From contig NZ_CP107930.1 in NCBI RefSeq assembly GCF_036021035.1, forward strand, positions 2,108,001 to 2,172,000: 64,000 nucleotides of DNA. The letters are read 5' to 3'. Source of the stretch: Kineococcus sp. NBC_00420 (lineage in GTDB: Bacteria > Actinomycetota > Actinomycetes > Actinomycetales > Kineococcaceae). The notes under the pieces are model-generated. The model did no database searches, was not told the DNA's origin, and saw only the letters and a list, made by a program, of their open reading frames with translations. The stretch's first letter is position 1. Each line of letters opens with the position of its first letter. A program made the position numbers and the translations under genes. Shown piece by piece: positions 414-8,706 of the stretch.

Positions 414-465
414 TTGACTGAACGGTCCACCACGGCGTAGGTTAAAGACCGAACAGTCCACTACG
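414..465 (+). promoter_or_regulatory. Promoter with two 19-bp direct repeats (likely TetR operators)
   Basis: TTGACT at 414-419 and TAGGTT at 438-443 form a -35/-10 pair with an 18-bp spacer. Two 19-bp direct repeats of the form GAC(T/C)GAAC(G/A)GTCCAC(C/T)ACG lie at 416-434 and 447-465, 31 bp (about three helical turns) apart. One overlaps the -35 region and the other lies just downstream of the -10. Each copy contains an imperfect palindrome around TGAACGGTCCA. A ribosome-binding GGAG follows at 471-474 before the ATG at 482. The placement is what a repressor would use; the TetR gene closing this operon is the natural candidate (inference). Confidence 0.6.
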
Positions 466-481
466 AGAACGGAGCACGACG

Positions 482-1228
482 ATGAACGCAGCACTCACCG
501 GCAAGACGGCCCTGGTGACCGGCGGGACCTCCGGCATCGGCCTGGCGGTCGTCCGCCGGTTCGTCGAGGAAGGGGCCCACGTCGTCGTGACCGGGCGGCG
601 CCAGACGCAGCTCGACGCGGTCGCGGCCGAACTCGGCGACGCGGTGACCACCGTGCAGGCCGACGCCTCCGACCCGGCGCAGGTGAACGCCCTGTTCGAG
701 GCCGTCGCCGCTCGCGGCACCGGACTGCACGCGGTCCACGTCAACGCCGGCGGCGGGGAGTTCAAGCCCCTGGCCGAGGTCAGCGCGCAGGACATCGACA
801 CCGCCTTCGCGACCAACGTCCGCGGCACGATCCTCACCGTGCAGGGCGCGCTGCCCTTCCTCGGGGAAGGCGCCGCGATCGTGGTGACCGGCTCCACCGC
901 CGGATCGGGGACGGAGAAGGACTTCGGCCTCTACGGCGCCTCGAAGGCCGCGGTGGCGACGCTGACCCGCACCTGGGCCGCCGAGCTCGCCCCGCGCGGG
1001 ATCCGCATCAACACCGTCGTCCCCGGCCCCACCGAGACGCCGGGACTGACCGGTCTGGCCCCGGGCAACGAAGCCGGTCTCCTGGCGGCCATCGCCGCCG
1101 GGCTGCCCTTCGGCCGGGTCCTGCGCCCCGAGGAGGTCGCCGCCACCGTCCTCTTCCTCGTCTCCGACCAGAGCTCCGGCATGACCGGCGGCGAGGTCTT
1201 CGTCGACGGCGGCTCCACCATCGCCTGA
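482..1228 (+). CDS. SDR family NAD(P)-dependent oxidoreductase
   Basis: This 248-residue protein has the classical short-chain dehydrogenase layout: the cofactor motif TGGTSGIG near residues 13-20, an NAG motif after the fourth strand, a catalytic Ser in the VVTGS strand and the Tyr-x3-Lys pair in YGASK. An Arg in the second strand (TGRR) suggests NADP(H) preference, by family knowledge. The C-terminal GGEVFVDGG signature is also typical. Length matches the family (about 250). Start ATG 482 has GGAG seven bases upstream. It is the first gene of a same-strand set with an MFS exporter, an MBL-fold hydrolase and a TetR regulator. That grouping suggests a small-molecule detoxification or modification cassette, but the substrate is unknown. 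Confidence 0.9.
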   Translation: MNAALTGKTALVTGGTSGIGLAVVRRFVEEGAHVVVTGRRQTQLDAVAAELGDAVTTVQADASDPAQVNALFEAVAARGTGLHAVHVNAGGGEFKPLAEVSAQDIDTAFATNVRGTILTVQGALPFLGEGAAIVVTGSTAGSGTEKDFGLYGASKAAVATLTRTWAAELAPRGIRINTVVPGPTETPGLTGLAPGNEAGLLAAIAAGLPFGRVLRPEEVAATVLFLVSDQSSGMTGGEVFVDGGSTIA

Positions 1229-1282
1229 CCCACCCGGTCCGGACCAGCCCGCACCACACCAGCCGACGAGGAGGAGACCCCG

Positions 1283-2551
1283 GTGAGCGACCGCACCACG
1301 TCCGTCCCGGCCACGACGGAACGCGAACCCGCACCCCCACCGTCGCCCGCGCGCCGGGGACGACTCGGCGTCGCGTCCGTCGCCCTCGGGTCGTTCGCGA
1401 TCGTCCTCTCGGAGTTCCTCCCCGTCGGACTCCTCCCGGCCATCGCCTCCGGCCTCGACGTGCCCGTCGGGACGGCCGGACTGATGGTCGTCGTCACCGG
1501 GCTCCTCGCGGCGGTCGCCGCTCCCGCGGTCACGGTGGCCGCCTCCGGACTCGACCGGCGCGTCGTGCTCACCGGGCTCAGCGCACTGCTGGTCGTCTCC
1601 GACGTCCTCGCCGCCCTGGCCCCGACCTTCCCGCTCCTCCTGCTCGCCCGGGTGCTCCTGGGGATCAGCCTCGGCGGGTTCTGGGCGATCGGGGCCGGGA
1701 TCGCCGGGCGCCTCGTGGCCCCGGCGGACACGATCCGGGCGACCGCCCTGATCACCGGGGGGATCTCCGTCGCCACGGTCGTCAGCCTCCCGCTGGGCGC
1801 GGCGGTCTCGGCGTTCGCGAGCTGGCGCCTCGCCTTCGTCATCGGCGGTGCGGTCGGCCTCGCCGCCCTCGTCCTGCAACTGATCGCCCTGCCCGGTCTC
1901 CCTGCGGCGCAGCGTGTCCGGGTCTCGGCGCTCGGCGCGCTGTTCCGCGTGCCCCGCGCCCGGGTCGGACTCCTCGGGGCCGCGTTCGCCTTCGCCGCGC
2001 AGTTCGCCGCGTCCACCTACGTCACCCCCTTCCTGCAGGACCGCGCCGGCGTCGGCCCCGGGACGGTGACCTGCGCGCTTCTCGTGTTCGGCCTGGCCGG
2101 GATCGCCGGCAACTTCGCGGCCGGCGCGACGCTGGGCCGCAGCGTGCTGGGCACGGCGGGGACGGCCCAGGTCGTGCTCGCGGCGACGGTCGTGCTGCTG
2201 CCGCTGCTGGCGCGCAGCACCGTCGGGGTCCTCGTGCTCGTCGTGGTGTGGGGCTTCGCGTGGGGCGCCCTGCCGCTGGCGATGCAGACGTGGATGTCCA
2301 CCGCGTCACCGGCCGGGGCCGAGACCGGCCTCGCGCTGTTCGTGACGACCATCCAGCTCGCCATCGCCGCGGGTTCCGTCCTCGGCGGTCTGGTGGTGAC
2401 CTCCGCCGGCCTCGACACGGACTTCCGCCTCGCCGGCGCGATCGCCTTCGCCGGGGCCCTGGTGTTCGTCGTCCTCGGTGCACGGCGCACCGCGCACGCT
2501 GCCGCGCAGACCCCTTCCCCCGTCGGTTCGATCCCACCTGGAGCACCGTGA
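1283..2551 (+). CDS. MFS transporter, DHA1 type (NepI/AraJ-like)
   Basis: This 422-residue integral membrane protein has about twelve hydrophobic segments. The first segment carries SEFLPVGLLP, which resembles the start of NepI/AraJ-type sugar and nucleoside efflux proteins. A conserved cytoplasmic loop between helices 2 and 3 (SGLDRR) is a degenerate MFS motif A, and the helix 4-5 region RVLLGISLGGFWA fits DHA1 antiporters. It would export a small molecule using the proton gradient. The start is GTG 1283 with a strong GAGGAGGA at 1268-1275. The stop TGA overlaps the GTG of the next gene by 4 bp, implying translational coupling. The substrate is not predictable; the neighbouring SDR and MBL enzymes may act on the same compound. 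Confidence 0.88.
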   Translation: MSDRTTSVPATTEREPAPPPSPARRGRLGVASVALGSFAIVLSEFLPVGLLPAIASGLDVPVGTAGLMVVVTGLLAAVAAPAVTVAASGLDRRVVLTGLSALLVVSDVLAALAPTFPLLLLARVLLGISLGGFWAIGAGIAGRLVAPADTIRATALITGGISVATVVSLPLGAAVSAFASWRLAFVIGGAVGLAALVLQLIALPGLPAAQRVRVSALGALFRVPRARVGLLGAAFAFAAQFAASTYVTPFLQDRAGVGPGTVTCALLVFGLAGIAGNFAAGATLGRSVLGTAGTAQVVLAATVVLLPLLARSTVGVLVLVVVWGFAWGALPLAMQTWMSTASPAGAETGLALFVTTIQLAIAAGSVLGGLVVTSAGLDTDFRLAGAIAFAGALVFVVLGARRTAHAAAQTPSPVGSIPPGAP

Positions 2552-3420
2552 GCGCCTCTCCGGCCGTCACCACCACCCTCGACCTCGGGGGGACCACCCT
2601 CACCTACCTGCCCGACGGCGAGTTCCGCGCCGAGCCCGGTGTGGCCTACCCGGCGGGTCACGACGACCTGTTCGCCGACGACCTCGACGTGGTGGACGGG
2701 GACGGCCTGCTCGTCCTCAGCGTGGGCGCGGTCCTCATCAGCACAGGCGAGCGCCGCGTCCTGGTCGACGCCGGCATCGGCGCCCGGACCATCCCCCTCG
2801 TCCGTCCGGGGACGACCCGCGACGCCTACATGCGCGGCGGGACGCTCCTCGACAGCCTCCACGAGGTGGGCGTCGAACCCGGTGACGTCGACGCGGTCCT
2901 CCTGACGCACCTGCACGCCGACCACGTCGGCTGGCTCGGGAACGAGGCCGGCGACGGCGTCCCCACCTTCCCGAACGCGGAGCTCTGGCTCAGCGAGGAC
3001 GAGTGGGACTTCTGGACCCGCCCCGAGCAGCGGGGTGACCCCGTCGGTCCGCGACCCCATGAGCTGGAGATCATCGGTGCCCGGCGCCGGTCCCTGGTCG
3101 AGGGCTGCGAGCCCGTGGTCGGGGTGCGGACCGTCGCGACCCCGGGACACACCCCCGGACACCTCGCCTTCGCCGTCCGGGGAACCCGAGGCCACGCGCT
3201 CGTCGTCGGCGACGCCGTCCACTGCCCGGCCGAGGTCCTGCACCCGCACCTGGCCTGGGTGGGCGACCACGACGCGGCGGCGGCGATCCGCACGCGGGTC
3301 GACCTGGCCGACCGCGTCGGTCGCGACGGCGCGGTCCTCGTCGGGCCGCACTTCCCGGACGCGGTCTTCCGCCGCTACGACCCCGCGGCGACCCCGTCGC
3401 TCACGCCGCTCGCCCCGTAG
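2548..3420 (+). CDS. MBL-fold metallo-hydrolase
   Basis: A 290-residue metallo-beta-lactamase-fold hydrolase. The zinc-binding motif HLHADHVG (HxHxDH) lies near residue 121, the second His site in PGHTPGHLAF near residue 205, the bridging Asp in VGDAVHCP, and the last His in GPHFPD near the C terminus, so the dinuclear metal site is complete. The start is GTG 2548, which overlaps the stop of the MFS gene by 4 bp and has GGAG at 2540-2543; the frame is open further upstream but that part is antisense-like shadow. This subgroup resembles lactonase and hydrolase members of the fold, but the substrate is unknown. It probably works with the SDR enzyme of the same operon. Confidence 0.88.
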   Translation: MSASPAVTTTLDLGGTTLTYLPDGEFRAEPGVAYPAGHDDLFADDLDVVDGDGLLVLSVGAVLISTGERRVLVDAGIGARTIPLVRPGTTRDAYMRGGTLLDSLHEVGVEPGDVDAVLLTHLHADHVGWLGNEAGDGVPTFPNAELWLSEDEWDFWTRPEQRGDPVGPRPHELEIIGARRRSLVEGCEPVVGVRTVATPGHTPGHLAFAVRGTRGHALVVGDAVHCPAEVLHPHLAWVGDHDAAAAIRTRVDLADRVGRDGAVLVGPHFPDAVFRRYDPAATPSLTPLAP

Positions 3421-3505
3421 GCGCGGCGGACGTCGGCGACGCACCAGCTCGCCGGGGTGCGTCAGGATGGTCCGACGCCCAGGTAACGACCCCGGAGGGA
3501 CGACC

Positions 3506-4135
3506 ATGCCCAGACCCCGCTCGTTCGACGAGGCGGACGTCATCGCCCGCGCGCGGAAGGCGTTCGCCGAGACGGGTTTCGCGGGCACCTCGCTCGACAC
3601 GCTGCTGGAGGCGACGGGCCTGGCCCGCCAGAGCCTCTACAACACCTTCGGCGGCAAGCGGGACCTCTTCATGCGGGCGTTCCTCAGCGACGCCGCCGAG
3701 GCGGTGGACGCCGTGGAGTCGATCCGGCACGGCTCGGACGACCCCATCACCCGCATCCGCGCGCAGCTGGTGAAGGTGGCCGTCGAGCACGGCTCGGCGC
3801 AGGCGCCCCCGTCCCTCTTCACCAAGGCCGCCGTGGAACTCTCCGCCCAGGACCCGGAGGTCGCAGCGACCGTCGCCGCCGCCTTCGAGTCCATGCGGGC
3901 GCACTACGCCGCCTGCATCGTCGAGGCCCAGAGCGCGGGTGAGATCGAGACCGACGCCGACGCGGACTCCCTCGGGGCCTACTTCTGCGCGGTCCTCGAG
4001 GGCATGTCCACGCTCGGGGGGTCGGGGGTCTCGCGCGCGACGCTGCTCGACATCGGGCTCACCAGCCTCGCGGCCGTCCCCCTCACCGACCTCGGCCGCG
4101 ACCACCTCGGCACGGGCGAGGGCGAGTGGTCCTGA
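3506..4135 (+). CDS. TetR/AcrR family transcriptional regulator
   Basis: A 209-residue repressor-type protein. The N-terminal helix-turn-helix spans about residues 5-55 and contains the TetR pattern: an F-A-E-T-G-F-x-G-T-S-L turn, then LLEATGLARQSLYNTFGGKRDLF. The C-terminal ligand-binding half is all-helical. ATG 3506 is chosen because GGAGGGA lies at 3494-3500; the frame is open further upstream but that region is the end of the MBL gene. It is 85 bp after the MBL gene, on the same strand, so it is the last member of the SDR-MFS-MBL cassette and the likely reader of the direct repeats at 416-465. The inducer is unknown. Confidence 0.88.
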   Translation: MPRPRSFDEADVIARARKAFAETGFAGTSLDTLLEATGLARQSLYNTFGGKRDLFMRAFLSDAAEAVDAVESIRHGSDDPITRIRAQLVKVAVEHGSAQAPPSLFTKAAVELSAQDPEVAATVAAAFESMRAHYAACIVEAQSAGEIETDADADSLGAYFCAVLEGMSTLGGSGVSRATLLDIGLTSLAAVPLTDLGRDHLGTGEGEWS

Positions 4136-6407: not shown

Positions 6408-7052
6408 CTAAGCGCAGGCGGGCGGTGGACCGACGACCCACGCGGGCGGCGTGCCCTCCATGGGCGGCAGCTCCCCTTCGGGAGGGCAGACCGCGTCGAG
6501 CAGCAGGGCCCCGTACCGGCGCCAGGCGGAAGGGCCTTCACCGCGGGTCCGGTCGGCGATGGAGCCGATCATCGAGGACACCGACGGCACGTCGGCCGCC
6601 GTGAAACCTTCCCGGACCGCCCCCTCCGCGTGCGCGCGGTCCACGAGCCGGGTCACCGCTTCGCTCAGGTCGGCCCGCAGCCGCTCGGCGTCCGCCGTGG
6701 CGGGGGCGGCCCGCATGACGGTGGTGGACAACGCCTTGTCCCCGGCCCGCAGCTCCATCGTCCCCAGCAGGTAGGACCGCAGGCCCTCCCGGCCGCTGGG
6801 CCGGTCCGCGCAGCGTTCGGCCAGCGCGAGCAGGTTCTCGAGCTTGGCCTCGACGAGGCCCCCGAGCAGGGCGTCCTTGTCCGGGAAGCGGCGGTAGACC
6901 GTCCCGACCCCCACCCCGGCGGCCTCGGCCACGTCGTGCAGGGTCACGTCCAGACCGCGCTCGGCGAAGAGGCGGCGGGCGGCGTCGACGATGAGCGCCC
7001 GGTTGCGGACGGCGTCGGCGCGCAGCGGTCGGTCGTGGGTCGTCGTGCTCAC
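6408..7052 (-). CDS. TetR family regulator of the adjacent exporter
   Basis: A 214-residue TetR protein. The N-terminal DNA-binding domain (about residues 13-60) reads ALIVDAARRLFAERG, then LHDVAEAAGVGVGTVYRRFPDKDALL, close to the canonical pattern. The rest is the helical ligand pocket, ending in a Pro-rich tail (GTPPAWVVGPPP). GTG 7052 is chosen as the start because the TetR domain begins there and longer frames run into the operator region. It is divergent from the EmrB/QacA-type MFS gene at 7192, with two matching 23-bp palindromes in the 139-bp gap. The simplest reading is a repressor that controls itself and the exporter and is released by a substrate of the pump. Confidence 0.88.
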   Translation of the reverse strand: MSTTTHDRPLRADAVRNRALIVDAARRLFAERGLDVTLHDVAEAAGVGVGTVYRRFPDKDALLGGLVEAKLENLLALAERCADRPSGREGLRSYLLGTMELRAGDKALSTTVMRAAPATADAERLRADLSEAVTRLVDRAHAEGAVREGFTAADVPSVSSMIGSIADRTRGEGPSAWRRYGALLLDAVCPPEGELPPMEGTPPAWVVGPPPACA

Positions 7053-7080
7053 GGTTCCAGGGTACTCGTGCGCCGGGAAC

Positions 7081-7142
7081 AAATGGACGCCTCGCGTCCG
7101 TTTGCGTGTACGCTGGTGGAAGTGGACGCGACCCGTCCGTTT
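7081..7142. promoter_or_regulatory. Pair of 23-bp TetR operators
   Basis: Two near-identical 23-bp palindromes lie at 7081-7103 and 7120-7142, 39 bp apart. Each has half-sites AA(A/G)TGGACG and CGTCCGTTT around a 5-bp centre. They fill the region between the divergent TetR (start 7052) and MFS (start 7192) genes, so binding would control both directions. The -35 and -10 elements were not clear. Confidence 0.75.
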
Positions 7143-7191
7143 GACGCCGGCCTCCGATCGCCGCCGGCACCTCGAAACTCCTGGAGAACTC

Positions 7192-8706
7192 GTGAGCTCC
7201 GACACCGCTCCGACCAACACACCGCCGCACGCGGGGCAGCACGCCGCGGCGCACCCCGCCCACAAGGCCACCAAGGACCACCGCTGGTTCGTCCTCGCCG
7301 TCATCGGCATCGCGCAGCTGGCCGTCGTCCTCGACGCGACCATCGTCAACATCGCGCTCCCCGCGGCCCAGGCGGACCTCGGTTTCGCCGACGACCAGCG
7401 CCAGTGGATCGTCACGGCCTACTCCCTGGCCTTCGGGTCACTGCTCCTGCTCGGCGGTCGCCTCGGCGACCTGTTCGGGCGCAAGAACCTCTTCATCATC
7501 GGGCTCATCGGTTTCGCCGGGGCCTCCGTGATCGGCGGCCTCGCCGAGAACTTCGGACAGCTCGTCGCGGCCCGCGCCCTCCAGGGCGTGTTCGGCGCCC
7601 TGCTGGCCCCCTCGGCCCTGGCCCTGCTGACCACGACGTTCACCGATCCCAAGGACCGGGCCCGCGCGTTCGGCGTCTTCGGCGCCATCGCCGGATCCGG
7701 CGCCGCCACGGGAGTCCTGCTCGGTGGCGTCCTCACCGAGTACACGACCTGGCGCTGGTGCCTCTACGTGAACGTCGTCTTCGCCGCCATCGGCGTCGTC
7801 GGTGCCCTCCTCTTCATGCCGAAGGCCACCCGCGGACCCCGTCCCCGCCTCGACCTGATCGGCACCATCACCATCACCGCCGGCCTCGTCGGGATCGTCT
7901 ACGGGTTCTCCTCCGCCGAGACCAACGGGTGGTCCGACGCGGTGACCATCACCTGCCTCGCCGCCGGCGTCGTCCTCGTCGCCCTGTTCGTGGTCGTGGA
8001 GTCCCGGGTCTCGCACCCGCTGCTGCCGCTGCGGATCGTGCGTGACCGCGACCGCGGTGGAGCGCTCATCGCGATCGGCCTCGTCGGGGTCGCGATGTTC
8101 GGCATCTTCCTGTTCCTGACCTACTACCTGCGTCAGACGCTGCAGTTCTCCTCGCTGGAGACCGGGCTGTCCTTCCTGCCGATGCCGCTCTCGATCATGA
8201 CGGCCGCGACGCAGATCACGCCGCGCCTGCTGCCGCGCATCGGGCCGAAGGCGCTCATCACCATCGGCTCGCTCGTCGCCGCCACCGGGGTGCTGCTGTT
8301 CCTGCGCACCAACACCGAGAGCCACTGGGCCGGAACGATCCTGCCCGCCCTGGTCGTGACCGGTCTGGGCATGGGGCTGATCATCTCCTCGGCCATGAAC
8401 ACCGCGACCAGCGGTGTGGCCCGCGAGGACGCCGGCGCCGCCAGCGCCAGCGTCAACACGTTCCAGCAGGTCGGCGGTTCCATCGGCACCGCGCTGCTGT
8501 CGACGATCTTCGCGAGTTCCGTCGCCGCTCACGGCGGGAACCCCGTCGACGCCGTCCTGCACGGCTACCACGTGGCCTTCGCCTGCGGCGCGCTCGCCCT
8601 GGTGCTCGTCGCGGTCATCTCCGGCAGCCTCATCAACCGGCACTCCGTCCGTCAGGAACGCCTCGCCGCGATCGGCTCGATCCCGGTCCCGACCGTCGCC
8701 CACTGA
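7192..8706 (+). CDS. MFS multidrug exporter, EmrB/QacA (DHA2) type
   Basis: A 504-residue protein with about 14 membrane segments, the DHA2 topology. After a hydrophilic, His-rich leader of about 30 residues it shows LDATIVNIALP in helix 1, the cytoplasmic loop GGRLGDLFGRK (motif A), RALQGVFGALLAPSALALL in helix 4 and GSGAATGVLLGG (motif C, antiporter) in helix 5. It should export drug-like molecules in exchange for protons. The start GTG 7192 has GGAG five bases upstream. It is divergent from and probably repressed by the neighbouring TetR. A 19-bp hairpin closes the gene. The substrate is unknown. Confidence 0.92.
   Translation: MSSDTAPTNTPPHAGQHAAAHPAHKATKDHRWFVLAVIGIAQLAVVLDATIVNIALPAAQADLGFADDQRQWIVTAYSLAFGSLLLLGGRLGDLFGRKNLFIIGLIGFAGASVIGGLAENFGQLVAARALQGVFGALLAPSALALLTTTFTDPKDRARAFGVFGAIAGSGAATGVLLGGVLTEYTTWRWCLYVNVVFAAIGVVGALLFMPKATRGPRPRLDLIGTITITAGLVGIVYGFSSAETNGWSDAVTITCLAAGVVLVALFVVVESRVSHPLLPLRIVRDRDRGGALIAIGLVGVAMFGIFLFLTYYLRQTLQFSSLETGLSFLPMPLSIMTAATQITPRLLPRIGPKALITIGSLVAATGVLLFLRTNTESHWAGTILPALVVTGLGMGLIISSAMNTATSGVAREDAGAASASVNTFQQVGGSIGTALLSTIFASSVAAHGGNPVDAVLHGYHVAFACGALALVLVAVISGSLINRHSVRQERLAAIGSIPVPTVAH

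Follow-up and report, generated by a model that had tools for sequence, protein, structure and literature searches.

The two 19-bp repeats at the promoter of a four-gene operon in Kineococcus sp. NBC_00420 are very probably two operators (O1 and O2) for the TetR-family regulator whose gene closes the operon and which would repress its own transcription until released by a ligand. The operon probably derives from an SDR gene with its TetR gene and the double operator. The regulatory feature is real, conserved and of a common kind, one among very many TetR-controlled enzyme operons. The whole stretch of DNA analyzed, hereafter the window, is 64,000 nucleotides long, and its relevant features are as follows.

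414-419, + strand: predicted -35 hexamer TTGACT, overlapping O1; T414, T415 and the GAC of O1 are invariant in nine loci
416-434, + strand: repeat 1, GACTGAACGGTCCACCACG
416-427, + strand: O1 core GACTGAACGGTC, candidate operator; imperfect palindrome with self-complementarity at 8 of 12 positions
438-443, + strand: predicted -10 hexamer TAGGTT; five of six columns invariant in nine loci, 18-bp spacer to the -35
447-465, + strand: repeat 2, GACCGAACAGTCCACTACG
447-458, + strand: O2 core GACCGAACAGTC, candidate operator where transcription is expected to start; imperfect palindrome with self-complementarity at 8 of 12 positions
482-1228, + strand: SDR oxidoreductase, 248 aa; PF13561, E 2e-59; 76-86% identical relatives stand behind the same candidate operators
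1283-2551, + strand: MFS transporter, 422 aa; PF07690; among nine loci, relatives (78-81%) in L014 and L035 only
2548-3420, + strand: MBL-fold hydrolase, 290 aa, GTG start; PF00753; relatives include lactonases and methyl parathion hydrolase
3506-4135, + strand: TetR-family regulator, 209 aa; PF00440 and PF16925 above cut-off; probable repressor of 482-4135

The initial annotation, for a cassette listed from 414 onward, had placed two direct repeats at a 31-bp spacing around the -10 of the operon. The pair and its spacing were confirmed by reading (16 of 19 positions identical, 31 bp from start to start), with TAGGTT bracketed by the two copies; the first copy begins at 416, and 414 is instead the first base of the -35. 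Together, TTGACT and TAGGTT form a sigma-70-like promoter. This promoter was not reported by a generic promoter scan, which requires a closer match to the consensus. Each repeat is a near-palindrome of the form GAC-N6-GTC, and for this reason the pair is best read as two TetR-type operators.

We compared the promoter across loci with closely related TetR proteins. A TetR scan of genome contigs gave eight loci, six of them close (77-85% identity; two from Curtobacterium, three from Klenkia and one from Kineococcus rubinsiae), and whole-genome searches added L035 (genome G078, of the window's genus, 89%) and L036 (genome G491, of another family, 80%). A match in G134 had the same contig coordinates as that of L014 and was counted once. 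The resulting set of nine comprises the window and all eight close loci found (TetR identity 77-89%). Close homologues are rare, the TetR protein having matches at 1e-30 in 3 of 394 genomes of the class, its own included.

In all nine loci the SDR gene (76-86% identity) is preceded by O1, the -10 and O2, at a spacing of 30-32 bp. The mean majority-base fraction was high for the two operators (O1, 0.91; O2, 0.89) and the -10 (0.96), compared to 0.74 for the spacer, 0.65 for the leader and 0.46 for the upstream DNA (390-409); the value for O1 is partly accounted for by the -35, and the spacer is also fairly conserved. Three loci (the window, L011 and L015) carry the strict 12-mer at both sites without mismatch and three more (L012, L013 and L016) with a single mismatch in one site, so that six of the nine are within one mismatch per site. 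L014 has two and one mismatches, and at a limit of one mismatch L035 lacks both sites and L036 has O1 alone; because of this poor fit, the three rest on the looser GAC-N6-GTC and were accepted on that form, the MAFFT alignment and position. The tetR and SDR genes of L036 are divergent and share one pair between them.

None of seven distant TetR homologues (33-41% identity; L037-L042 and L025) had a pair with three or fewer total mismatches. All seven have a nearby SDR match, partial in L039 and L025, and the L025 homologue has an in-frame stop. At the threshold used, no pair was present in the other two loci from the contig scan, L017 (37%) and L018 (58% over 59 residues). Looser GAC/GTC repeats are visible by eye between genes in L037-L042. 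The initial annotation had proposed a search for the repeat in front of homologous TetR/SDR operons and had named a lack of conservation, together with a lack of TetR binding, as fatal to its reading; the search found the repeat pair at every close locus and, at the thresholds used, at none of these distant ones. Among the close loci, conservation of O1, the -10 and O2 is far above that of the upstream DNA.

Owing to their near-palindromic form, the two sites can be compared as direct or as inverted copies. Over the 12-base cores, the inverted reading was better in six of the nine loci, tied in two (the window, 10:10, and L036) and worse in L015; over 24 bases it was again better in six, tied in L011 and worse in the window (15 vs 18) and L015. 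The script for this comparison required GAC-N6-GTC and gives no independent evidence for that form; the MAFFT alignment is independent. The term 'direct repeats' is apt for the window over 24 bases, but each copy is itself a near-palindrome and most loci agree better as inverted copies. The cores of L014 and L035 matched at 11 of 12 positions when inverted, compared to 7 when direct. In these two loci, the inner halves of the two operators differ correspondingly from those of the remaining loci, a pattern to be expected from recognition of the two sites by a single protein.

Repeats of this kind might have arisen by chance, and direct repeats of at least 16/19 with a spacing of 19-60 bp are not rare in the GC-rich window (12 pairs, where 20 Markov copies averaged 2.55). 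A 16/19 direct repeat on its own is weak evidence. The palindromic pair, on the other hand, is not due to chance. The strict pair pattern, GACYGWWCRGTC-N16..22-GACYGWWCRGTC, i.e. sites 28-34 bp apart, had a single occurrence in the window, and 300 Markov copies contained none. It was recovered from only 4 of the 394 class genomes (five places, the window included) and was absent from the reversed control, and a looser pair search gave one chance pair per 432,560 random bases. Since the repeats are conserved in nine loci, the chance reading, to which we attach next to no probability, is in effect refuted.

Within the window's own genome, the looser palindrome GAMYGWWCRKTC was found at 10 places, and the two in the window form the sole pair. 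Four of the eight unpaired places are inside listed ORFs (L004, L006, L007 and L008) and four are outside (L002, L003, L005 and L009). A broader two-site pattern yielded no matches in this genome, a result that carries no information: the pattern required G or T ahead of the GAC of O2, and the window's own pair escaped it for this reason.

Outside the window, the strict pair was recovered from three genomes of a single family, at four places in all. At L043, L044 and L046 it precedes an SDR gene and has a TetR gene on its opposite side (the TetR was identified from translations in L043 and L046, and by eye from the sequence in L044), and at L045 it precedes a TetR gene. The L045 and L046 TetR proteins, the two that were scanned, score above the Pfam cut-offs of both TetR_C_13 and the LmrA/YxaF-like domain, and the site class thus seems to belong to a broad TetR_C_13 group.

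The TetR protein of the window scored above cut-off for TetR_N (PF00440; 35.9 bits, cut-off 24) and TetR_C_13 (43.7 bits, cut-off 27) and below cut-off for TetR_C_13_2 (LmrA/YxaF-like; 24.8 bits, cut-off 27) and the ScbR autoregulator receptor model NF041196 (43.3 bits, cut-off 150). Its AlphaFold model (pLDDT 87.3) has the all-helical TetR fold, and CifR-operator DNA complexes rank first by Foldseek. CifR gave Z 19.3 (rmsd 2.5 over 190 residues), with 3bru (19.1), NemR (18.5), 4l62 (18.5) and 3qbm (18.4) within 1 Z of it, and the YxaF/QdoR structure gave Z 18.0 (rmsd 2.8 over 181 residues, 18% identity). By sequence, the best solved relative was 2i10, ahead of CifR. The helix-turn-helix region is near-identical among the nine TetR proteins.

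Autoregulated repression of the operon is likely, judging from its sequence, and we infer binding, repression and co-transcription along the following lines. Without ligand, TetR dimers would cover the -35 by binding O1 and the expected start of transcription by binding O2. The two sites, about three helical turns apart, would lie on the same face of the DNA, and RNA polymerase would be excluded. A small ligand would free TetR and allow the SDR, MFS, MBL and tetR genes to be transcribed together, and tetR, as the last gene, would close a negative feedback loop. Our guess from the enzymes encoded is a small hydrophobic ligand, either a carbonyl or a lactone compound, on which the SDR would be the first to act. 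The self-regulation suggested in the initial annotation thus gains inferential support, with the pair before the SDR gene in every close locus and between the divergent tetR and SDR genes in L036.

The sites could instead be bound by another regulator, either an activator or a different TetR, with the linked TetR acting elsewhere. The own genome holds two further TetR-like matches at E <= 1e-6, and the operator role is sequence-based. However, each of the nine close loci has both the pair and a linked tetR, which is reversed in one of them, and sites over the -35 and the expected start are in the position of a repressor. We consider control by another regulator improbable.

By analogy with characterized systems, the TetR protein may repress from O1 and O2 and be released by a small molecule, and a QdoR-, CifR- or QsdR-like working of the operon would be of a known kind. 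PMC8481877 describes QdoR as autoregulated, with two operators at its main target promoter and a detoxifying enzyme as target. QdoR/LmrA (YxaF) of Bacillus subtilis resembles the present system in the type of repressor and in the paired operators, which are seen here as sequence only. These flavonoid repressors differ in the target enzyme, in the 18% identity and in the TetR_C_13_2 domain, which is below cut-off here. The CifR/cif system of Pseudomonas aeruginosa is alike in its fold and in a TetR repressor over an operon with MFS and hydrolase genes. The morB gene of that operon encodes an oxidoreductase, and a 2012 report by Ballok is said, going by its title, to concern two binding sites for CifR. 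According to PMC8244358, morB and the genes for an MFS transporter and a hydrolase are in an operon under repression by CifR, and certain epoxides release the repressor. The differences are the identity of 25-26%, the hydrolase, which there is an epoxide hydrolase and not an MBL, and cifR, which is divergent from its operon. The QsdR/qsd system of Rhodococcus erythropolis, likened by description only, also places an actinobacterial TetR over a lactonase operon. QsdA is a phosphotriesterase-like lactonase, not an MBL, and qsdR lies upstream of its operon, unlike the tetR gene at the operon end here. More generally, PMC3511530 supports the prediction of TetR targets from gene neighborhood. No description of the locus was among the literature matches listed, most subscription papers being outside the search, and the 12-mer searched as text gave a single match, unrelated (cotton).

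The description of the four genes as tightly arranged was borne out at the MFS/MBL junction, where the MFS stop and the MBL start share four nucleotides, GTGA (2548-2551), as annotated, but the SDR-MFS and MBL-tetR gaps are 54 and 85 nt. The 85-nt gap makes co-transcription of tetR with the other genes less certain, although a terminator scan found none. We rejected a hairpin between the enzyme genes and tetR as a conserved element (window 3421-3505, z -0.16 vs shuffles). Folding of this gap in eight loci left L011 alone standing out from shuffles; this strong hairpin, between the SDR gene and tetR of a Curtobacterium locus (L011, 5888-6000), had a z of -2.28. A second operator right before tetR was also rejected, an eight-locus alignment inspected by eye having no conserved pair there. 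A site-like stretch near tetR was noticed by eye in L012.

Gene content varies among the nine loci. Six have SDR and tetR next to each other without MFS or MBL, L014 and L035 have SDR-MFS-tetR, and the window alone has SDR-MFS-MBL-tetR; all three loci with MFS are of the window's genus. The conserved unit is SDR, TetR and the double operator, and MFS and MBL are probably later additions. Because gene content is nested, we infer that MFS was gained before MBL: a pump and then a lactonase-type hydrolase would have been inserted between SDR and tetR of the ancestral unit in the window's genus.

The MBL protein is a member of the Lactamase_B family (PF00753; 66.5 bits, cut-off 22.7) and the SDR of adh_short_C2 (PF13561; 201.5 bits, cut-off 27). 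The search of the phylum with the MBL protein, detailed below, found 15 places with relatives, of which 11 were read as loci and four were without a locus. The HxHxDH, H, D and H columns of MBL, which we take to be the metal ligands, are invariant in 11 aligned sequences (L054 left out), and since these motifs are kept, a hydrolase role is likely from the sequence. Methyl parathion hydrolases and acyl-homoserine lactonases are among its solved relatives in the PDB. AidB/AidC, YtnP and methyl parathion hydrolase are sequence relatives that share the metal-ligand motifs; the window's MBL nevertheless falls far below the NCBIfam cut-offs for AidB (NF047979; 102.9 bits, cut-off 360) and YtnP (68.2, cut-off 425), as it does for all NCBIfam lactonase models listed. 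At 1e-30, none of the 296 other genomes searched in the order, among them 10 of the same genus, had a match to MBL, an absence that is not strict because at most eight candidates per genome were scored. At 1e-25, matches at 34-42% identity came from 14 genomes among 395 others in the phylum (at most six candidates per genome scored). Close relatives were absent from plasmids, with 862 records matching, all below 60% identity.

The initial annotation took the four genes as one unit that modifies, hydrolyzes and exports a single compound. In this dedicated pathway the SDR would reduce the compound, the MBL open a lactone or ester and the MFS export the product, with the same compound as TetR ligand. 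The genes are on the same strand, probably under a single promoter, with the GTGA overlap between MFS and MBL, and an SDR gene is also present in 4 of the 11 MBL-relative loci read (L047, L048, L053 and L057), a count without a background rate. In addition, PMC6476934 describes a lactonase operon whose TetR repressor, QsdR, lets go in response to lactones. The gene content of the close loci does not support a dedicated pathway, as both MFS and MBL are missing from six of the nine and MBL from another two. SDR genes are frequent in actinomycetes, which weakens the MBL-SDR neighborhood as evidence. A dedicated pathway is in our opinion rather unlikely. In L048 (1498-3140), a distant MBL relative is followed by an SDR gene on the same strand, a separate MBL-SDR neighborhood.

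It is closer to an even call, though still short of one, that MFS and MBL ride as passengers, or as cargo that broadens its scope, in a general xenobiotic-response locus, placed there because the promoter is inducible. The nested contents (SDR and TetR; SDR, MFS and TetR; SDR, MFS, MBL and TetR) are consistent with cargo, as is the lack of MBL matches at 1e-30 in the 10 other genomes of the genus, with at most eight candidates scored in each. The GTGA overlap suggests a selected coupling and argues against it, and so does the composition of MBL, whose GC3 (0.94) is like that of its neighbors (0.93-0.98).

On our preferred reading of an ancestral SDR-TetR unit with two operators, O1/O2 is a concrete conserved candidate operator for an uncharacterized TetR group, and might be used as a biosensor part once the TetR ligand is identified. 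The nested gene content also points to a way in which cargo can be added behind an inducible promoter. The TetR proteins share 75-93% identity across several genera, and the TetR and SDR trees disagree in places with modest support; together these suggest that transfer may have taken place. It is a speculative and doubtful extension that the SDR, TetR and inverted operator pair form a small transferable control unit, spreading among actinobacterial orders and collecting detoxification genes, with the operators co-evolving as one cooperatively bound site.

Two further features of the window were observed. Upstream of the promoter lies the end of a gene for a SnoaL-like protein (2-328, + strand), with no match in the six close contig loci searched or in L035 and L036. 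Downstream of the operon, a second TetR-like ORF (6408-7415, - strand) faces an apparent MFS-type ORF (+ strand, to 8706), as judged from translations. Between these two ORFs, two similar palindromic sites, TGGACGCCTCGCGTCCGTTTG and TGGACGCGACCCGTCCGTTTG, lie 39 bp apart (7084-7143), an architecture as at O1/O2 with a different motif.
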